In this document: positions 14,492 to 40,481 of the stretch, piece after piece
How the letters are laid out: each line of letters starts with the position of its first letter
Position numbering within the stretch: position 1 is the first letter of the stretch
Source of the DNA: a virus
Reading direction: 5' to 3' (one strand)
Virus record (IMG/VR): IMGVR_UViG_3300021438_000027
Location: 1 to 41,065 of that record
DNA length: 41,065 nucleotides
The notes under the pieces: generated by a model
The model's input: only the letters and a program-made list of their open reading frames with translations
Told to the model about the DNA's origin: nothing
Database searches by the model: none
Position numbers and translations under genes: made by a program

Positions 14492-15300
14492 TATCCAACA
14501 GGTATATATCTTATTGCGTTACTTATATTGGTTGCATCAGTATTAGATTTGGCTAACATTGCTGCTAGTGCATCAAACCTGAATCTACTCACCATTCGGA
14601 GCATAATTGCCCTGAAACTATTAGGATTAGGGTTGTATATCTCAACGGTACGTGTACCGGTTATTGGTGGAGTATTAGTTATGTAATTAACCGCCTGCCT
14701 TGGGTCGCCAATAACAGGTGGTTGTGTACTAATCAAATTGGTTGCACTTCTAGGTCGTTCTGAACTACCTATGCCAAGATTAACCGGACTTGAACCATCA
14801 GGGCGACCTTTGACATATTTACGTTGAAGTGCTTTATGGCTTCTGTTATATGAAGGGTCGCCTGATAATGTAATACTAACATTTGCCTGACGGGGCATGA
14901 AGTTATTCGGCTTAGAGTGGTTAGAATAATCAGCATCAACCGATTCAACTATGTACTTGTCATTTTTAAACATGTTGCCTACAAATAGTCCAACTCTAGG
15001 TGCAACACCGTTCACACCATTAGAAGCTATCAGTGATTTAAGCCAACCAACCCTTGCATAAACTGTTTCGCATTTGTCGTCCTCCGCGTAGAAGTCTAGG
15101 TCAAGCCTTATGGTGTCTTTACCATTGATGAATTGGTACTTTGGGTCGTTCCTACCTATAATAGCATAGTCGGAGATGTTTCCATTCCGACTTTCTGTTA
15201 TGCTCGGCATGAACTGAATCTCCATGCGTTCGTTAGTATCAAACCGTAGTAAATAGATTTTACTACCAGTTGTATTGAGTCCTGTGTTTTTTATATCCAT
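14491..15300 (-). CDS. contractile-tail tube-like adaptor (CIS tube N-terminal family)
   Basis: This 269-residue protein carries features of the inner tube initiator/adaptor of contractile injection systems. These are YLLRFDTNERMEIQFMPSITE near the N-terminus, the strand LDLDFYAEDD around residue 67, and a second beta region ending in VSITLSGDPSYN. The C-terminal 100 residues look disordered and proline-rich, ending in a helix. It lies between the tape measure and the LysM-like gene, as in related phages and in Afp/PVC-type clusters. It probably links the tube to the hub. The name rests on pattern and position. Confidence 0.72.
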   Translation of the reverse strand: MDIKNTGLNTTGSKIYLLRFDTNERMEIQFMPSITESRNGNISDYAIIGRNDPKYQFINGKDTIRLDLDFYAEDDKCETVYARVGWLKSLIASNGVNGVAPRVGLFVGNMFKNDKYIVESVDADYSNHSKPNNFMPRQANVSITLSGDPSYNRSHKALQRKYVKGRPDGSSPVNLGIGSSERPRSATNLISTQPPVIGDPRQAVNYITNTPPITGTRTVEIYNPNPNSFRAIMLRMVSRFRFDALAAMLAKSNTDATNISNAIRYIPVG

Positions 15301-17933
15301 TATGGGGTCATGATTTTATCTCTAGCCGACAACTTATTAATTGCAGGCATGAGTTGTTTAGCCATTACTTTACCATCTACCACTAAGTTAGCTTCTACTA
15401 CAATTGTCTGCTGCCCAGAAGATGAAGAAGTTTCACCTGTAAGTGCCCTATTGAGGTCATTACCTGTTTTCTCCTTGTAATTGCGCATATACTCTTCGTA
15501 TATCTTGCGTTGAGCTTCATTCTTAGGTGCAATATCGGAAGACGTTAAGTTAGACGGATTGCTGAGGGTAGTTCGTATAGACTTAAACCATTGACCATTC
15601 TCCATCTGTATTTCAGATAGTGAGCTAATCTGTGCCTGCTTAACTGCATCGTCCAAAGTTTGCCTATAACTATTGAGAGCCAAATCAGCATCACTGAGAG
15701 CGTTCATCTGCCGCTTAATCTTGCCAGTAGTCTTGTCAATGGAGTCACCTAAATTATCATAGGAATCAGCAGCATCGTTAGAAGTACTCGCTGTGAATAT
15801 ACAACCCAACGCAAGAGCACCAAGTCCTAGAGTGAGTCCGGCTATAGATGCTGCAAGTAAACTATTTACACCCACAGCAGTTAGTGAGAAAGCAATCCAG
15901 TTAAATAGTTTAACCACACCCGTAACCAACAGATTCTCGGTAACAAGCAACCTCAATGCTACTAGTGCCAGTGACCTTGCCCAATACAAAGTAGCCGTAG
16001 CAGCTAGGAATCCAACGGTCTTCCACAACCAAGCTGCATCAAAGAGTGGGCTAATTATTCTACCAAAAACACCCATCTTTTCAATCGCCCAACTAACCAT
16101 TGAACCAAGACCTTGAAAAGTGTGTGCTATCGCAGTGAAAACATAGGTAAAACCCTCAACGAGGTCCATAACTGCTTCAACATATGTGAATAGGTTTTTA
16201 GCACTCTGTTGTGAACCTATTTTACCTAAAGCATCCCATAATTCAGTAGATATTTTGGCACTGTGAGTCTCTCTATTGTAATTAGCGAAAGCCTCTGACA
16301 CAAACATCAGCATACCACCCAAATGTTGTAACCAACCAGTAAATCCTTGTTGCTGCTGTTCGTTACCTGCCATCACAGACTTAAAGTGCTGAATAGCCTT
16401 ACCTGCCAAAGTAGCCACTTGTGCTATGAGTAGGAACCACTTGAACATTGAACTACTAACCAACGCAGTACCTAAACTGGCAAAGTTGGTAGCCAACCCT
16501 GCAATACCACCTTCGAGTTTGACTATTCTAACCAAAGCAGCACCCACGTGTGAGCCTATAAGTCCGAAACCTTTGGCGAGCATTTTAGCACCCAATAGGT
16601 TAACGGCAATAGCCCCTGCCAAAGCAGAAAGCATTGTTACAACACTCCAAAATACATGACCGAAAGTAGTGGCTGAAAACACTTTTATCACTTTTATACC
16701 AACGCTAACTAGATTGAGGAAAGCTGTAACAACCGGTCCTATTGAATTACCTATTTCAGCAAATAAACTAGGTAAATCCATCTGCGTGATAGCTGCCCAA
16801 GTAAACGCTGTTGAGGTGCGTATCTTATCCAATGTACGACTATACCTAGTACCCGGAGACATTGCTTTCTCGAAAGCCTTGGATATATCTCCGATGCCTA
16901 TTTTAAGTTCTTTAAGACTTTCAGGTAATTTCTGACCCATTGAGTCTTCTAACAACTTACGTAGCGGAATACCGGCTGCGGCAGCTTGATACAACTCCCT
17001 AGATGTAATCTTACCGTTCGCAGCAATTTTCTCCAACTCCCTACTGAATCTATTCAATTCTGCCGGACCTCTACCTACAACAGTAAGGAAGTCTGACACA
17101 TTTTTAGTCAAGGGTAAAGCTACATCAGCACCAATACCTTGTGACAACATCAAGTCCGCAGCTTTTAGTTCATTCTCAAAACCCATCATAGGGTTATCGG
17201 TAGATGCCTTACGCAAAAAAGCAAAGGCTTCTTCTGCTTTCGCAGCCGAGCCTAAGAAACCGTCCAACGTTAATTTAGCCTTTTCAAATCGCATTTCAAT
17301 CTGAGCACCTTTCAGAGCGAGTCCTAAGCCTACAACAGATGCAACAAGCATATTGACACCCACAACAGCGTTTCTAGTCATTTCTGCTTCCCACGCCTCC
17401 ATAGCCACCTTAGCTTCACGCATTGCCTCTGCACTAGCATCAATAGCTTTATTGAGTTCCATTTGGGCTTTAAATTGAGTAAGATAGTTTTGAGCGTTTA
17501 TCTTATTCAATTCAGCCATTGCTGCATCAATTTCCATCTTAGTAGACATCTCTTCTACGTAAGCCTTTTCTCGAAGCCCGGCTAATTCTATCTGTTGTTC
17601 AGTCTCTAATTGAGCTATTTGCAGTTTACGAATACTGGCGGCTTCAAATTCAGCAGCGGAAGCCATCTGTGCTTCACGCTCAACGTCAATCATTGATATG
17701 TACCGCCTAGCATCAGTCATGCCGTCATAGGCAGGGTTTTTCATAGACATCATGTAACGTCCATTTTCAACCCACCTACGAACGGAATCAGTTGAAGCAG
17801 TTTCCAAAGAAGTAGAAGCGGATGCAAGTTTAGCCATCTGCGACTGTATCTGTTTAGACGTAGCAGAAAAGTCGTCTACAAGGTAAAATTGTAAACCGAA
17901 CCCTTCATCGTATGACCCAACTTGTACACCCAT
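15300..17933 (-). CDS. tape measure protein
   Basis: This 877-residue protein is the longest here and sits directly after the tail chaperone gene, the standard place. Residues about 30-190 are charged coiled coil (AQLETEQQIELAGLREK and similar). Around residues 220-300 is the conserved tape-measure domain with AEEAFAFLRKASTDNPMMGF and then LMLSQGIGADVA. Several hydrophobic segments follow, such as VGVNMLVASVVGLGLAL and ASIAGLTLGLGALALG, which could insert into the host membrane. At roughly 0.15 nm per residue the tail would be about 130 nm long. It sets tail length and is ejected on infection. No transglycosylase or peptidase domain was seen. Confidence 0.92.
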   Translation of the reverse strand: MGVQVGSYDEGFGLQFYLVDDFSATSKQIQSQMAKLASASTSLETASTDSVRRWVENGRYMMSMKNPAYDGMTDARRYISMIDVEREAQMASAAEFEAASIRKLQIAQLETEQQIELAGLREKAYVEEMSTKMEIDAAMAELNKINAQNYLTQFKAQMELNKAIDASAEAMREAKVAMEAWEAEMTRNAVVGVNMLVASVVGLGLALKGAQIEMRFEKAKLTLDGFLGSAAKAEEAFAFLRKASTDNPMMGFENELKAADLMLSQGIGADVALPLTKNVSDFLTVVGRGPAELNRFSRELEKIAANGKITSRELYQAAAAGIPLRKLLEDSMGQKLPESLKELKIGIGDISKAFEKAMSPGTRYSRTLDKIRTSTAFTWAAITQMDLPSLFAEIGNSIGPVVTAFLNLVSVGIKVIKVFSATTFGHVFWSVVTMLSALAGAIAVNLLGAKMLAKGFGLIGSHVGAALVRIVKLEGGIAGLATNFASLGTALVSSSMFKWFLLIAQVATLAGKAIQHFKSVMAGNEQQQQGFTGWLQHLGGMLMFVSEAFANYNRETHSAKISTELWDALGKIGSQQSAKNLFTYVEAVMDLVEGFTYVFTAIAHTFQGLGSMVSWAIEKMGVFGRIISPLFDAAWLWKTVGFLAATATLYWARSLALVALRLLVTENLLVTGVVKLFNWIAFSLTAVGVNSLLAASIAGLTLGLGALALGCIFTASTSNDAADSYDNLGDSIDKTTGKIKRQMNALSDADLALNSYRQTLDDAVKQAQISSLSEIQMENGQWFKSIRTTLSNPSNLTSSDIAPKNEAQRKIYEEYMRNYKEKTGNDLNRALTGETSSSSGQQTIVVEANLVVDGKVMAKQLMPAINKLSARDKIMTP

Positions 17934-17940
17934 TATCTAC

Positions 17941-18108
17941 TTATTTCTTTTTAAACTGCTTGTTGTACTCTTCAATATCTTTTGTTATCCACTCTAAGTA
18001 TTTACCGTACTGCTTAGGGGTAAGTTCCATAAATTCAGTGTAGGTAAAATTCAAATCATTCTGACAGAATATGTAATAAAGTCGGTCTAAATCCTGCCAG
18101 CCGGGAAG
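17941..18108 (-). CDS. -1 frameshift extension of tail assembly chaperone
   Basis: This frame has no start codon of its own near the beginning. It is open from the slippery site to a TAA at 17941-17943. Read after a -1 shift at 18108-18114 it adds 55 residues (LPGWQDLDRLYYIFCQNDLN, then FTYTEFMELTPKQYGKYLEW and a Lys-rich end). This replaces the six residues FPAGRI that the unshifted frame would add. The predicted fusion is 331 residues, against 282 for the short form. The extended protein ends seven bases before the tape-measure ATG. This is the gpG/gpGT arrangement of lambda and E/E' of P2. The fold of the extension (aromatic and helical) is compatible with a domain that binds the tape measure. 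Confidence 0.82.
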   Translation of the reverse strand, partial: LPGWQDLDRLYYIFCQNDLNFTYTEFMELTPKQYGKYLEWITKDIEEYNKQFKKK

Positions 18109-18935
18109 AAAAAAGATAAGTCAGTTGTCAAGTCCACAACTACTTTTCTTTCCGCAGGTGGTAACAAAATAGCCTCCGGGTGTTCAAACCTGATAGTAGT
18201 ATTCGCATCACCTTCTGCAAGACGGATAGTTGCCCTTAGACGGTCTAAATTCTTGGCAGACATTTCTTCCAAATCGTGCATTTGAACTGCTACAAAGGTC
18301 ACGTCTTGCGGACGTTTCCAAGCCAGTTTACGGCACATGAGTAAGGTGTTTGTATTCCTCTTATCACTTGATAGTAAAATAGCTTCTGATTGACCGTTCA
18401 TGCGAACAAACCTGAACTCTGTATCACCCAATTTGTAGAAGCACGGCTCCGATAAGTTTGAGGTATCGGCATTATACTGGCTCAAACTAGTGGCAGCTTT
18501 ATCATAGTCAGCAGGCTTCAACAAATCAAGACCTTCGAGTTTGTCAGCTTCCAGTAATTTAGGTGCTACAGAATCGAAGAACTTACCATTCACGTCCACT
18601 AAAATCTCCTTGCTTAGTTCAGTGCCTTTAGTCCCTTCCGCAATGGACTCATATCGGAAGAAATAAGAAATCTGCTCAGGCATTTCCTCGGAGTGTACTT
18701 TAATAGCACCAAGTATGTATCTTTTGTCAACTACCGGAATCTGCTTTACAAATTCCAATGACTCTTTAGTTTCACTCACCTGAATATTGCCGTAAGACAA
18801 AAGTAGGTAAGCAAATACCTTGTTCATGCCGCCTATAGTATCAGTCATATCCGACACTAAGCCTTGTACTTTACCGTTAATACCTCTCGCTGTGAAAGAT
18901 ACGCCGGATGGGGTTGTTCCTTGAAACGTGTTCAT
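18087..18935 (-). CDS. tail assembly chaperone, short form
   Basis: This 282-residue protein is encoded between the tube gene and the tape measure, the place of tail assembly chaperones. I take the ATG at 18935 (MNTFQGTTPSGVSFTARG); the longer frame begins only with a TTG that overlaps the promoter. It is mixed alpha/beta, with a C-terminal helical stretch DLEEMSAKNLDRLRATIRLA. It stops at a TAG just after a slippery T_TTT_TTC, where a -1 shift would extend it. It is longer than most chaperones of this kind (often about 100-200 residues), so an additional domain is possible. Chaperones of this kind coat the tape measure during tail assembly and are usually absent from mature virions. Confidence 0.75.
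   Translation of the reverse strand: MNTFQGTTPSGVSFTARGINGKVQGLVSDMTDTIGGMNKVFAYLLLSYGNIQVSETKESLEFVKQIPVVDKRYILGAIKVHSEEMPEQISYFFRYESIAEGTKGTELSKEILVDVNGKFFDSVAPKLLEADKLEGLDLLKPADYDKAATSLSQYNADTSNLSEPCFYKLGDTEFRFVRMNGQSEAILLSSDKRNTNTLLMCRKLAWKRPQDVTFVAVQMHDLEEMSAKNLDRLRATIRLAEGDANTTIRFEHPEAILLPPAERKVVVDLTTDLSFFFPAGRI
18108..18114 (-). promoter_or_regulatory. -1 ribosomal frameshift slippery heptamer T_TTT_TTC
   Basis: In the chaperone frame the codons are TCT TTT TTC, giving the canonical X_XXY_YYZ heptamer T TTT TTC. It lies six codons before the zero-frame stop. A -1 shift here enters a frame open for 55 codons. I could not confirm a strong downstream stem or pseudoknot by eye. Confidence 0.82.
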
Positions 18936-19050: not shown

Positions 19051-19506
19051 TTATTTAGGTTGAACCAAATCCACCGCGATAGTCACTTTGCGAGCAATGT
19101 TTTCAGATGCAGCCCTGTCGAGTTCACCGGGGTCAACCCCACATACCCAACAGCCAATGTAGGTATCTGTGCGAAGAACTACAGTACCGGTATTATCAAG
19201 TTCATGAATCCTGATAGTCTTCTTAACGTCTAAAGCATTAAGACCGCCACCAGTTACAGGGTTTTGAGCACTTAGAAGCCATTGTTCTGCCCATAAATCA
19301 GTACCTACGGTAGATGATATATTTTCGAGAACCATGTCTGACACTTTGTACCTACCCGGAGTCTTTATATCGTAGTTGGTATCTGCGTGAGTCACTTGGT
19401 CGATAGTCACTTCAGGTCTTGTAACCTTCTGACAAACGAACTGATTGAAGCCATCAATCTCTATGGAGAACCCGAACTTTTTACGGGTGTTGTTTACATT
19501 AGCCAT
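19051..19506 (-). CDS. tail tube protein
   Basis: This 151-residue protein has the size and pattern of the T4 gp19-type tube subunit. It shows FGFSIEIDGFNQFVCQKVTRP near the N-terminus, in two parts (FGFSIEIDG; FVCQKVTRPEV), TPGRYKVSDMVLENIS, and a C-terminal strand ARKVTIAVDLVQPK. The hexameric rings stack into the rigid inner tube through which DNA passes. It immediately follows the sheath gene, as in nearly all contractile phages. The transcript ends at the hairpin just downstream, so sheath and tube can be made in high amounts. Confidence 0.9.
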   Translation of the reverse strand: MANVNNTRKKFGFSIEIDGFNQFVCQKVTRPEVTIDQVTHADTNYDIKTPGRYKVSDMVLENISSTVGTDLWAEQWLLSAQNPVTGGGLNALDVKKTIRIHELDNTGTVVLRTDTYIGCWVCGVDPGELDRAASENIARKVTIAVDLVQPK

Positions 19507-19528: not shown

Positions 19529-21418
19529 TTAAACAACTTTGAATGAGATACCGGAATTAGTTACACCCAATTCTATGTTGATGTATTTCAACTGAACAGT
19601 AGGTGAAACCTGAATAGCTACTTTGTAAGCACCTGCTGAGATAGTCTGTGAGGTATTCAGACTAGCCTGTGAAGCATTTACAACGTCTTGGTCGCCAACA
19701 ATAATATAGTCACCTAATGCCCTGTTGTCTTTCGCGTACTTCAAGCCTGCTTCAAGTACGTTAACGACATTTTTCCAAGTGATTGGGTCGTTAGGCTCGA
19801 AATAGAACTTAGGAGTCATTGCAAAAATATAGCGATACAACCAAATAAGGAACTCAGCTACACCTGCTTCAGACAGCAACGATGTTTGGTCGCGATATAA
19901 ACTACGGTTGTTAAAGATAACGAGATTCTTGTCGGTGTCTTTCTTAATCCAGTTAACACCTGCATTATCGGCTCTGAGTGCCCAAGATGCTCTCGAAGGT
20001 GTTGAAATGTCAACAATCAGGTCTTTTGCGTTGTCAATAAGACCTCTCGTGTAACCTGCGAATGAGTACCAAGGGTAGTAGTTATTGTCCCTTTTAGACA
20101 TTGCAGCAGCAACCGCAGATGTTTCACTATAGTTACCCCAAGTATTCGTCTGACTATTGAGCAATTGTAAACCACTCATTGACATGAATCCTCTGTAGCT
20201 ATTAACAGGAGAATGGCTATAAGAGCCTGTACCGTTGCGGTAATCTTCCACTGTTTGAATAGTCGCACCTACCGGAGTACCGACAATAAAGCCCATATCT
20301 TGACGACTATCACAATAGTTTGCAAGCGCAATATCCATTGTAGGGTCAATGATATTTGGAACCCAAATCTTGTTACAATCCAAGTCAGCATCAAGGGCAT
20401 ACATGTTAGTTGCAGCAAGTGAACCACCTACGTAATCAGAAGCAGACATCGCGTTAGAATCAGCACCACTGCTTAGAGTTAGTGTTGTACCCGGAACGAA
20501 CACGTAGCTAGACGTGAGCGTGATAGCACCCAAAAACTGACTATTAGCCAGTATCTTATTGATTGCGGTAGTTCTGTCTGAACCACTTGCCGGAACGTCT
20601 GCGAATATCTCACTAGGGAATCCCGGAAGTGATACTGTAATATCGTAGCAGTTGTACTTTTTAGATGCTGCTAATGAGATGGCAACTGTCATACTGTTAC
20701 CTAATGCACCGATGTACTTAGCGGTAAATACACCACTCGCGGTATTCACGGTAGCGTTTACACCACCTGAGAATGCTCTTACGTTAGGATTAACCACGCA
20801 GTTACCTACAAGTGCTTCAAGTGTATAAGCATTCGCAGCAGCCCCTAAAGAACTTGGGGCAGTAACCGTGAATGAACTACCTGATGCAGTACCAGTCCAG
20901 CCATTAGATAAAGCATTAAGTGCAGCAACTAGTGCTGTCACGTTAGTACTCAAACTATCTGTATGGGTTACAGTGAAACTATCAAGAATCACAATGTCCG
21001 CTTGTCCGGGGCGGTGTACTACCAAAGTAATAGTCCCGTCTGTTGTAGCAGAACGAGAATACAACGTAGCGGTAGCAGTAGCACCTACAGCAGATACGGA
21101 AGACTGTGTGTTGGTTACAGTAGCCTTAGCACCTGTGAATGTGCTAGGTTGGTTAGGGTCAACGTACTTGACGCATCTAACGACTTTACCAACGCCACCT
21201 CTTTGGAAGAAGTCGTTGGCTAGGAATGTAGAGTCACTGAAAAACTGACTACCAAAAGTTGCCTGAAACTCCTGTGGCGAACTGATTAAAGTAGGCACAC
21301 CTACCGGTCCCCAAGCAGTATTTACAAGCATCGCAACCAACCCTTGTGACGAAGTGTTGAGGATTTTGCTGTAATCAATGAGCGTAATTTCTGTCCGAGC
21401 AGAACCTTTATAGTCCAT
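19529..21418 (-). CDS. tail sheath protein
   Basis: This 629-residue protein is the contractile sheath. The N-terminus (MDYKGSARTEITLIDYSK, then VAMLVNTAWGPVGVPTLISS and FGSQF) and the C-terminus (QVSPTVQLKYINIELGV) match the conserved sheath ends that interlock between subunits. The region ITWKNVVNVLEAGLKYAKDNRA near residue 540 is also typical. Residues about 100-230 are Ser/Thr/Ala-rich beta sequence and probably an inserted surface domain, so the protein is longer than minimal sheaths (about 380-480 residues). It contracts on host contact to drive the tube through the envelope. It pairs with the tube gene 22 bases downstream. Confidence 0.92.
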   Translation of the reverse strand: MDYKGSARTEITLIDYSKILNTSSQGLVAMLVNTAWGPVGVPTLISSPQEFQATFGSQFFSDSTFLANDFFQRGGVGKVVRCVKYVDPNQPSTFTGAKATVTNTQSSVSAVGATATATLYSRSATTDGTITLVVHRPGQADIVILDSFTVTHTDSLSTNVTALVAALNALSNGWTGTASGSSFTVTAPSSLGAAANAYTLEALVGNCVVNPNVRAFSGGVNATVNTASGVFTAKYIGALGNSMTVAISLAASKKYNCYDITVSLPGFPSEIFADVPASGSDRTTAINKILANSQFLGAITLTSSYVFVPGTTLTLSSGADSNAMSASDYVGGSLAATNMYALDADLDCNKIWVPNIIDPTMDIALANYCDSRQDMGFIVGTPVGATIQTVEDYRNGTGSYSHSPVNSYRGFMSMSGLQLLNSQTNTWGNYSETSAVAAAMSKRDNNYYPWYSFAGYTRGLIDNAKDLIVDISTPSRASWALRADNAGVNWIKKDTDKNLVIFNNRSLYRDQTSLLSEAGVAEFLIWLYRYIFAMTPKFYFEPNDPITWKNVVNVLEAGLKYAKDNRALGDYIIVGDQDVVNASQASLNTSQTISAGAYKVAIQVSPTVQLKYINIELGVTNSGISFKVV

Positions 21419-30178: not shown

Positions 30179-31870
30179 TTATTTTGTCAATACACTAGTG
30201 CCAAAGCCAATAGGCATAATTCCGGTAAATACTCTATACCCTTTGCGCGACCAGTTAGCGTACATAAACGCATCAAACAAGTTGGGTGATTTACCACCAA
30301 GCCTCTTCTTAATTGCATCTTTAGGTTCAACAACTATAGCGTTACCGCTTTCTTTGTATCTGATAATGGTACACTCTTCACACAATTGGTCAAATAAACT
30401 TTCATCTTCAAGGTCAATAACAATATTGCCATCTTCCAAGTCTTTGGCTAGTTCATAAGCCATCTGAGAGCGTAAATTCTGAAACTTGTACAAAGGTTTA
30501 CCATAATTAGGGTTCTGAGTACCGTTACCCAAATATTCGTTGTTGTCTGTAGGCAGGGCTTCTTCCCATTGACCACCTATAATAGAAATAGGGTCTACTC
30601 CTAGACCACGCAATTCATTATATGTAGCCACACCTACGCCCACTGTATCAACACCGACAAATCCGGGCATTATATCGTACTTATCCAAAGTTTCTACCTC
30701 ATAGTCGTTCTTGCCGTTCATCTCTAGTTGGTTGTTATCCCAAACTAGATTGTAAGCCAAGTCATTCGCATTCCTACAGTGGAACTGCTTGATATACTTC
30801 AATATGTTTCCACGCATGTAGCACACTGCTGCTTTGTCACCATCTTCACTATTACTTACGTCAACACCGGCAGAGTGGTAACTATAATCGTAAGGTTTTT
30901 TAGATTCTTTAGCCGCTTTAAGCCATTCAGTCCGTATTAAGGACATATTACTCTGTGAAGGGCTTATACCTCTGACCCTAGATTGGAACATCGGGTGCTC
31001 AACAGACTTATACTTATCCAAACGCTGCTCAATACTACCCCTCGTAACGGCTCCGGGGAATATCTCTCTACCCAATACAACATTCGGGTAGTCGTAGGCA
31101 CTTACTCTGAAAGGTTTAACTCTTTTTAGCTGACAAAACTGATGTAAGGAGTCTGTTTGGCTATCAGGATTACCTACTGCTAAAATCAAATTGTGCTCGG
31201 CAGTACAGGTATTCTGAAAAGCAGTCATTACTTGCTGCGATATACCGGGAGTTTCTTCAAGGATAATAAGCATATGCTTCCTGTGGAAACCTTGTGCTTT
31301 TGTTGCAGACTCTTCCTCTGAAGTAGAACCCGTTACAAAACCAATAGCGTGCCACGACTTGCTGTAGTTAGCACCCTCTTGGTTTCGAGCATTAATATCC
31401 ACATCTTCGACTACAAGACGTAAATCATAATAACTAGATAGTGGTCTTATTTTCTTGAATTTGTGCTTTATCTTGGCTAGTTCACCCCAAAGATTCTTAC
31501 GTAACTGGTCTTGCTTAGGTGCAGATGTGATTACGAGTGAATCTTCAAAAACGTCCAAAAACCACATAACTAGTCGAGATAGCATATAGGTTTTAGACGT
31601 ACCTGTAGCGGCTTCTACTGCTGCCCAATGACCTTCGGAAATAGCTTTCCAAGCATTATATAATGGGTCAGGTGAGCCGTCCCATTTATGGTCAATACCT
31701 TCTTTTTTATAAAGGTCTGACCAACGGAAGTCGGATATATCCTCACCTAATTTTTCTTTAAGCCAAATATCGAAGCGTACCTGATAAAGTTCTTGTTGAG
31801 CTTTTTTGAGTAGAGCTATATGGGCTTTTTTGGTTTCACTACTTTCCTTATTGCGTCTGCCAAACTCCAT
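30179..31870 (-). CDS. terminase large subunit
   Basis: This 563-residue protein has the two terminase domains. The ATPase part shows a P-loop-like AATGTSKTY at residues 87-95, where Ser replaces the glycine before Lys. Walker B is HMLIILEETPG, with Glu 205-206. The C-terminal RNase H-like nuclease contains YHSAGVDVSNSEDGDKAAV, then PGFVGVDTVGVGVATYN and LFDAFMYANW, in which acidic residues bind metal. It packages DNA into the prohead at the portal and cuts the concatemer. It lies downstream of the small subunit, overlapping by 23 bases, and upstream of the portal gene. Confidence 0.9.
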   Translation of the reverse strand: MEFGRRNKESSETKKAHIALLKKAQQELYQVRFDIWLKEKLGEDISDFRWSDLYKKEGIDHKWDGSPDPLYNAWKAISEGHWAAVEAATGTSKTYMLSRLVMWFLDVFEDSLVITSAPKQDQLRKNLWGELAKIKHKFKKIRPLSSYYDLRLVVEDVDINARNQEGANYSKSWHAIGFVTGSTSEEESATKAQGFHRKHMLIILEETPGISQQVMTAFQNTCTAEHNLILAVGNPDSQTDSLHQFCQLKRVKPFRVSAYDYPNVVLGREIFPGAVTRGSIEQRLDKYKSVEHPMFQSRVRGISPSQSNMSLIRTEWLKAAKESKKPYDYSYHSAGVDVSNSEDGDKAAVCYMRGNILKYIKQFHCRNANDLAYNLVWDNNQLEMNGKNDYEVETLDKYDIMPGFVGVDTVGVGVATYNELRGLGVDPISIIGGQWEEALPTDNNEYLGNGTQNPNYGKPLYKFQNLRSQMAYELAKDLEDGNIVIDLEDESLFDQLCEECTIIRYKESGNAIVVEPKDAIKKRLGGKSPNLFDAFMYANWSRKGYRVFTGIMPIGFGTSVLTK

Positions 31871-32538: not shown

Positions 32539-33294
32539 TTATGTAGTTACAGCCCTTGACAATTCCAACAAGTTAGTACCGTCGAAAATGAAAGATACCG
32601 TAGCGTACTTATTGGCAGTCACCGTAATAGTTCCGGCAGATTTCATGTTGGTTCCGAAGGTAACAATCCGGTTAGTACCGTCAGCGGCAAATGTGAAAAT
32701 AACCCGGTCATTAGCTGCCAAGTTAGTGACAGTTGCGTTGATAGTAGCAGCACCGGTGAGTTGAGCCACATTCATATAGTTCATACGCGCAACTGACGGC
32801 GTAACTGCGATGGTAGGTACATAGGCAACAGAAGTAGCTTTCTCAGCAGCACGTAAATCGGTTCTGTACATTTCCACCCAAGTACTGCCGTCAAATACAA
32901 ATGCAATAAGTGATGGTAACGCAACAGTTACAGCTATAGTAGCCAGTGTAGGCGTTGTAGTAACAGTATCAAATGTTACAGTACGAGTAGCACCCGTAGC
33001 AGTTAGTTCGAAAATAACAGTATCACCCATGTTGATACCTTCTACACCCATAGTTATCGTAGTAGGTCCTGTTAAACCGTACTGAATAGTGGTATGACGC
33101 TGTGTGGTCGTCACGGTGAGGGCAGTAGCATAGTTAGGGGACTGAACATCGGGGATAGATGCCTGACTCGTCACCAAATCAATAAGACCAAGAAATGCTT
33201 CTTGGTTCTTACCCTTAAATTCAGGGAACGCTGCTTTAGGTTTGAGGAAGGCTACCGCCCACTCCCTTAATTGACTGAAAGTAGTGAAACTCAT
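32539..33294 (-). CDS. duplicated beta-domain structural protein
   Basis: This 251-residue protein has an N-terminal helical segment (FSQLREWAVAFLKPKAAFPE), then two related beta-rich domains. The first runs about residues 65-145 (GDTVIFELTATGATRTVTFD, ending IAFVFDGSTWVEMYR). The second runs about 172-248 (NDRVIFTFAADGTNRIVTFG, ending VSFIFDGTNLLELSR). The paired motifs xVIFxxxAxGxxRxVTF and FxFDGxxxxE show an internal duplication. The pattern suits a virion surface or fibre-tip protein. It is translated with the 67-residue gene upstream, which it overlaps by ATGA, and comes just before terS. The role is inferred. Confidence 0.78.
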   Translation of the reverse strand: MSFTTFSQLREWAVAFLKPKAAFPEFKGKNQEAFLGLIDLVTSQASIPDVQSPNYATALTVTTTQRHTTIQYGLTGPTTITMGVEGINMGDTVIFELTATGATRTVTFDTVTTTPTLATIAVTVALPSLIAFVFDGSTWVEMYRTDLRAAEKATSVAYVPTIAVTPSVARMNYMNVAQLTGAATINATVTNLAANDRVIFTFAADGTNRIVTFGTNMKSAGTITVTANKYATVSFIFDGTNLLELSRAVTT

Positions 33295-33527: not shown

Positions 33528-34181
33528 TTATTTTCGCAAATATATTCTCTGAACAGACATTGGACTGAACTGTTTACCGGTAGATGTCGTAAATCCTGTG
33601 TTATTGAGTTGTTCGGCAGCGGCTTTGTAACTCATACCCGGAATCAGGGTATCAATCATGGCTTTTGCCCTCTTATTATTCAGATTTTCAGCCGCTTTAC
33701 GCCTGTTTGATTCGTAAGCCTTCTCTCTAGCAGACTCGGTAAGGTTCTGTGGATTACCTAGTTTGATACCTTGCTTTTTCTTTTCTGCCAAAGCCGCTTT
33801 TGTGCGCGAACTAATCAGTTCTCGCTCTTCTTGTGCGATTATAGCCAAGATACCTATGGTCAGATTGTTTGCATTGGGGGTCTCGCAACAGACAAATTTG
33901 ACATCACTATCCTTCAACTGGTAGATAAACGACACGTTGCGACTTAACCGGTCTAATTTGGCTATAATAAGCGTTGCATCGTTCTTTTTGGCATCAGCTA
34001 TGGCTAAAGTGAGTTGAGGTCTGTTGTTATTTGCACCTGATTCTATGTCTGTATAAGACGAAATAACTTCGCCCCCTGATTTAGAGACGAAGTTATTTAT
34101 TACTGACTTTTGTGCTTCAAGTCCTAAGCCTGATTCACCTTGTTCTTTGGTTGATACCCTACAGTATGTTACGTATTTCAT
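33528..34181 (-). CDS. small serine recombinase (resolvase/invertase type)
   Basis: This 217-residue protein has the resolvase catalytic domain. The nucleophile is Ser10 in YCRVSTKEQGESGLGLEAQ, and arginines lie in AKLDRLSRN (about 75-82). A long helix with AIIAQEERELISSRTKAALA follows. The C-terminal 60 residues form a helix-turn-helix-like DNA-binding part (MSYKAAAEQLNNTGFTTSTG, SPMSVQRIYLRK). It lacks the large C-terminal recombinase domain of integrase-type serine recombinases, so it is the small invertase/resolvase class. It sits at the boundary of structural genes and the accessory zone. It may invert a segment, resolve multimers or integrate the phage. No crossover sites were found for certain. 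Confidence 0.88.
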   Translation of the reverse strand: MKYVTYCRVSTKEQGESGLGLEAQKSVINNFVSKSGGEVISSYTDIESGANNNRPQLTLAIADAKKNDATLIIAKLDRLSRNVSFIYQLKDSDVKFVCCETPNANNLTIGILAIIAQEERELISSRTKAALAEKKKQGIKLGNPQNLTESAREKAYESNRRKAAENLNNKRAKAMIDTLIPGMSYKAAAEQLNNTGFTTSTGKQFSPMSVQRIYLRK

Positions 34182-35656: not shown

Positions 35657-35720
35657 TGTAAACATTATTAAAACAAATAAAGACACACCTAAATCTTTAT
35701 GTTTAGTAATAATGTTTACA
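35657..35720. repeat. perfect 14-bp inverted repeat (possible operator)
   Basis: TGTAAACATTATTA at 35657-35670 is exactly repeated in inverse at 35707-35720, with a 36-base spacer. It lies directly upstream of the RHH-like/glycosylase operon. A regulator binding both arms and looping is plausible; a recombination site is the alternative. The remaining stretch to 35789 shows nothing else I can name. Confidence 0.75.
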
Positions 35721-40050: not shown

Positions 40051-40481
40051 ACGTCTAGGAATTGAATGTCCAAACATTGGAAAAAACCTGGTGTACCGTC
40101 TAAATTTTCTATGATAGCGTACGGAATACCGTCAGTAAGCATAAATTGGTGAAAAAAGCAAATTTCTCCCGTATTTGAAGCCTTACAAGGTCTTAAACCT
40201 TTTGGGTGTACAGGAATTGTAGGCTTTTGTAGTTCAAGCGTATAGAACTTGGACTCCTTGTTATTGACCATTATATTCCTTACAAACGGGTCTAGGTCAG
40301 TAGGTTTATCTAGGTTGCCACTGAATGACTTATTTCTCTCATCCTTGACAATACCGTCCGAATCTAAGTAGAGATATTCACTGCTTCCCCAACCAGTGCT
40401 ATACAATTTCCTACCGTCTTTAAGGGCTTTTAGCACCTCTTCTTTAGTTGTTAGTACAAATCCTTTTGGTTCTGTGTCCAT
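40047..40481 (-). CDS. unknown 144-residue phage protein
   Basis: The N-terminus TTKEEVLKALKDGRKLYSTG and the strand pair SSEYLYLDSDGIVKDE suggest an alpha/beta protein of a type often found in phage early regions. A second motif, FFHQFMLTDGIPYAIIEN, occurs near the C-terminus. No catalytic residues are evident. It is followed by the next gene through an ATGA overlap and preceded by 21 bases from the 135-residue gene. Confidence 0.7.
   Translation of the reverse strand: MDTEPKGFVLTTKEEVLKALKDGRKLYSTGWGSSEYLYLDSDGIVKDERNKSFSGNLDKPTDLDPFVRNIMVNNKESKFYTLELQKPTIPVHPKGLRPCKASNTGEICFFHQFMLTDGIPYAIIENLDGTPGFFQCLDIQFLDV

Follow-up and report, generated by a model that had tools for sequence, protein, structure and literature searches.

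The closest described counterparts of the locus reported here are the tail assembly chaperones (TACs) of tailed phages. The lambda G/GT model has been reviewed (PMC5009743), and for phage T4 both gp26 and gp51 are listed as hub assembly chaperones (review PMC3004832). According to the passage of the PRFect paper (PMC10885494) that cites Vladimirov et al. 2022, some T4-like phages possess two TAC genes, one short and one long, in place of a frameshift. PolyT -1 signals in the TAC-N genes of T4-like phages are mentioned in PMC12846349 with reference to Vladimirov, Gautam and Davidson 2022 (Virology 566:9-15). In connection with Pseudomonas phage Adele, PMC12846349 also describes -1 frameshifting at GTTTTT as conserved in the TAC genes of Vandenendeviridae and Andersonviridae. 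Frameshifting by -1 in T4-type TACs is therefore an already reported kind, to which the locus analyzed here adds another, diverged case. New are its assignment to the T4-type family by way of relatives, a diverged clade with an invariant slip site, and evidence for a conserved downstream stem in most of that clade.

The chaperone gene and its -1 frame

The window, i.e. the whole analyzed stretch of 41,065 bases from a virus record, carries genes for tail sheath, tail tube, portal, head protein, and terminase on the minus strand, a set pointing to a contractile-tailed phage (myophage). The tail sheath protein of the contractile tail is encoded at 19529-21418 (minus strand; phrog_23, 1.3e-26; PF22671, 2.6e-6) and the tail tube protein at 19051-19506 (minus strand; PF06841, 4.9e-11; phrog_4542, 1.6e-19), directly upstream of the chaperone. 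The zero-frame chaperone, TAC-N, spans 18087-18935 on the minus strand, with its ATG at 18935 and its TAG at 18089-18087. Directly downstream follows the gene for a protein of 877 residues (15300-17933, minus strand), which was assigned as the tape measure protein by its length and its place between the chaperone and baseplate genes and matched no family in Pfam and PHROG profile comparison. The chaperone gene is thus flanked on its own (minus) strand by the tail tube and tape measure genes, the arrangement characteristic of a tailed-phage TAC. Bacteroidota-type promoters were searched for and occurred at chance level only.

On the minus strand the chaperone gene ends with GAC TTA TCT TTT TTC TTC CCG GCT GGC AGG ATT TAG. 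The heptamer T_TTT_TTC is located at 18114-18108 in the X_XXY_YYZ phase, with six sense codons between it and the TAG, just as a sequence-only reading of the window had described without stating the strand. After a slip at this site, the -1 frame would read LPGWQDLDRLYYIFCQNDLNFTYTEFMELTPKQYGKYLEWITKDIEEYNKQFKKK and stop at 17943-17941, seven bases ahead of the tape-measure ATG at 17933. The resulting extension (TAC-C; 17941-18107, minus strand, 55 residues and stop) has the sequence LPGWQDLDRLYY...QFKKK; its first codon, CTT, begins with the final heptamer base (18108). The length of 55 codons and the seven-base distance claimed in the earlier reading were thus reproduced from the reading frames. 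It had also noted that the extension lacks a start codon near its beginning; in the -1 frame of the window, the earliest possible starts lie 20 codons (a TTG) and 28 codons (an ATG) beyond the heptamer. The frame itself opens two codons ahead of the heptamer. The predicted products are TAC-N with 282 residues and TAC-NC with 331 residues, the latter with the predicted junction ...DLSFF-LPGWQDLDR and a junction peptide ending in ...SFFLPGWQDLDR.

The Adele group resembles this locus in the parts of PMC12846349 that describe it: both are contractile-tailed, and in both a T-rich -1 site lies close to the 3' end of TAC-N and a continuous -1 frame leads up to the tape measure. The invariant motif given there for Vandenendeviridae and Andersonviridae is GTTTTT, whereas it is T_TTT_TTC here, and the passages on the TAC frameshift mention no RNA structure.

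In the window taken alone, the heptamer is weak evidence against chance. TTTTTTC occurred 12 times versus 11.8 expected, three copies of T_TTT_TTC lie in phase within genes of the window, and synonymous resampling that kept the Phe-Phe-Phe end of the protein and the codon usage yielded a heptamer among the final 20 codons at a rate of 25%. Because the heptamer is unremarkable in the window alone, relatives were needed for a test.

A second in-phase T_TTT_TTC is found at 40086-40080 (minus strand), 40 bases ahead of the end of gene 40481-40047. From there, the -1 frame runs into the next gene, 40077-39670, which has its own ATG at 40077. This heptamer is probably a chance overlap.

Relatives and conservation of the slip site

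The chaperone as query retrieved nothing in DNA or protein searches of phage databases. Likewise, single-sequence searches of viral contigs with chaperone, sheath, head protein, and tube gave no match, nor did a search of genome contigs with the terminase. The tail tube protein retrieved three phage records from human faeces by tblastn, and tail tube alignments used as queries led to more viral contigs and to one contig in a Dysosmobacter genome bin. The comparison set comprised 33 loci spanning the slip site, window included, which fell into 17 groups at 70% protein identity. Identity between the window chaperone and any relative found was only about 20-30%. Against a profile of the relatives, TAC-N of the window scored 40.6 bits (best of 5000 shuffles, 8.4). 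In a separate profile comparison, the fused protein scored 45.9 bits (zero-frame part alone, 32.4; best shuffle, 8.4); the extension on its own reached a weak score of 13.9 bits (best of 5000 shuffles, 9.8).

T_TTT_TTC was present in phase in all 33 loci, 4-7 codons ahead of the zero-frame stop, and was followed in each by a -1 extension of 52-90 residues reaching near the tape-measure ATG. The codon preceding the heptamer differs (ACT, GAT, AAT, GGT, TCT, CAT, GCT, CGT, or TTT) and always ends in T, and Phe-Phe at the slip site is encoded by TTT TTC without exception. Multiplied over the 17 groups, the codon-usage probabilities give ~10^-14.5, a value that treats the groups as independent and is hence overstated given their shared ancestry. 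The extensions are homologous across the relatives. Past the zero-frame stop, changes at the three -1 codon positions numbered 274, 181, and 730 (summed over overlapping pairs), and pN of the extension was well under pS between close pairs. This substitution pattern indicates that the -1 frame is under purifying selection between close pairs of relatives.

It is this conservation that lifts the heptamer above chance. The programmed -1 frameshift proposed in the sequence-only reading, which would append a C-terminal extension to the chaperone, is strongly supported by the comparison because heptamer, phase, and -1 coding frame are kept in 33 of 33 loci; the alignment of relatives named there as a check thus turned out in favor of the proposal. 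We consider it highly probable that one T4-type chaperone gene yields TAC-N and, by a -1 slip at T_TTT_TTC, TAC-NC.

The same fused frame could also arise from slippage of RNA polymerase, not of the ribosome, on the T6 run at the site. Six T residues are short for transcriptional slippage, however, and the run is always terminated by C and kept in the X_XXY_YYZ phase. In addition, the downstream RNA appears to be selected for a stem (see below), and its spacing suits ribosomal frameshifting. Slippage during transcription is therefore regarded as very improbable. We ascribe a slightly smaller probability to the -1 frame being a separate small gene with its own start, next to which the heptamer would be incidental. 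The in-frame TTG and ATG of the window would permit such a gene, and the heptamer is not rare there, but the -1 frames of five relatives (L012, L004, L034, L028, and L020) do not contain any ATG, GTG, or TTG, which excludes a separate gene in those relatives. The frame opens exactly at the heptamer in four (L012, L002, L004, and L034), and the conserved sequence starts at the invariant heptamer. The least probable explanation, a chance heptamer together with a decayed or spurious open frame, would be compatible with the resampling result for the window and is dismissed in view of the conservation over 17 divergent groups, the purifying selection, and the homologous extensions.

In many relatives (L013-L026), the -1 stop and the tape-measure start share four bases (ATGA type), and frameshifted ribosomes could thus couple to translation of the tape measure. 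The window has the seven-base gap in this place instead.

Family of the chaperone and proposed roles of its two products

PF12322 (T4_baseplate) was matched by 12 of the 17 aligned proteins when matches were counted at E <= 0.1 (best 1.4e-8; the Pfam matches inspected singly lay under the curated cut-off), and phrog_150 (baseplate hub) by 13 of the 17 (best 1.6e-8). The window chaperone itself matched neither PF12322 nor phrog_150 and is too diverged for a direct match to the T4-type family profiles. T4 gp26, with 208 residues, matched PF12322 from end to end, and T4 gp51 over residues 1-201. In direct profile comparison, the single gp26 and gp51 sequences did not give significant matches. As the relatives match the same family as gp26 and gp51, a T4-type tail assembly chaperone with TAC-N and TAC-NC forms is deduced, and the window chaperone is placed with the T4-type chaperones by way of its relatives' Pfam and PHROG profiles. 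This placement connects the T4-type tail chaperones with a diverged group of contractile-tailed phages that is known mostly from metagenomes. It also permits correct annotation of both protein forms and of the boundary to the tape measure.

The likeness to T4-type TACs extends from the family, as judged by the relatives' profile match, to the place before the tape measure and the occurrence of a short form and a long form with a C-terminal domain (282 and 331 residues predicted). The 48 residues by which gp51 continues beyond its PF12322 domain are comparable with the 55-residue extension of the window. T4 encodes the two forms in separate genes (26 and 51), which lie on opposite strands, whereas the window has one gene and a putative frameshift. 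The earlier comparison with lambda G/GT and P2 E/E' held for mechanism and layout, i.e. gene position and the likely role with an abundant short and a rare long form, but not for the sequence family, which, judged through the relatives, is the T4 type represented by PF12322. Similarly, the 282 residues of TAC-N, called unusually long in that reading, are long beside lambda G or P2 E, which are much shorter proteins, and near normal for the T4-type family: the zero-frame chaperones of the relatives measured 251-276 residues, and T4 gp26 has 208.

In the proposed mechanism, most ribosomes would read the zero frame and produce TAC-N. A minority would slip back by one base with the paired tRNAs at TTT TTC and continue into TAC-NC, the presumed minor product, in which the 55-residue C-terminal domain would take the place of the last zero-frame residues. 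If the lambda G/GT model applies, coating of the tape measure protein would fall to the N part, and the C domain would bring in subunits of the tail tube. With the N part on the tape measure and the C domain on tube subunits, the ratio of TAC-N to TAC-NC would matter. The AlphaFold model of TAC-N was poor (pLDDT 58), and the only good match from a fold search with it was an uncharacterised phage protein, next to a weak one annotated as tail assembly chaperone; matches from such a model carry little weight. The extension was modelled as three helices (pLDDT 78), suggesting that the C-terminal domain is probably helical.

RNA past the slip site and repeats elsewhere in the window

In the relatives, the RNA past the heptamer formed more stable folds than its dinucleotide shuffles did (mean z about -2 at +6, p 0.0013), compared with a mean z of about -0.6 upstream. 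It also folded better than recodings that kept the -1 protein (mean z -2.2), and the proximal stem, which opens at about the usual spacing from the slip site, exceeded the protein-preserving null with a Fisher p of about 1e-10 over the 17 groups. From about 5 to 200 bases past the slip site, the relatives (L006-L058) share a conserved long stem, located within the -1 coding region and folded around at least one hairpin. In L006 and L042, which carry insertions of about 35 and 16 residues, the stem arms ACGGAAGCG and CGTCTTCCGT still pair, and in L047 the arms differ in all letters yet pair. Two helices in the 17-sequence alignment had 76% of cells paired versus 70% in shuffled and 38-46% in slid alignments. 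They contained 20 compensatory cells versus 8.5 after shuffling, a covariation count that leans toward these helices, since a scan of this very alignment had served to select them after single-sequence folds had pointed to them. RNAalifold run on the whole alignment gave weak structure. The folding comparisons point to selection for a stem beyond protein coding in most relatives, and this conserved stem offers a concrete, testable candidate for what stimulates frameshifting in a tail gene.

A 10-bp stem is predicted for the window at 18061-18100 (minus strand; arms 18100-18091, CTGGCAGGAT, and 18070-18061, ATTCTGTCAG). It begins seven bases past the heptamer (-11.3 kcal/mol, z -1.7) and may act as a stimulator. 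Against the protein-preserving null, this stem was no better (p 0.48), and the loci found include no close relative of the window. A similarly placed local stem in L058 yielded p 0.012 against the same null. Pairing of the loop of the window's stem with downstream sequence was no better than chance (P 0.54). The pseudoknot for which the sequence-only reading had proposed a folding check is consequently not supported; the relatives show the long stem with internal hairpins, and the window the predicted 10-bp stem. We lean toward the view that a conserved long-range RNA element drives frameshifting in the clade, in the form of a stem opening a few bases past the slip site and closing roughly 75-200 bases later in the -1 coding region around one or more hairpins. 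This element would have survived the insertions of ~35 and ~16 residues as well as complete sequence change, and the lineage of the window may have swapped in the local 10-bp stem.

Elsewhere in the window, a serine-recombinase-like gene is located at 33528-34181 on the minus strand (phrog_125, DNA invertase, 2.2e-35). Near it lies a perfect 14-base inverted repeat, GTTTCACTACTTTC, at 31833-31846 and 33277-33290 with arms 1430 bases apart, and it is possible that the flanked segment is invertible. A further inverted repeat of 27 bases (85%), with arms 10 bases apart, is found at 35657-35720.
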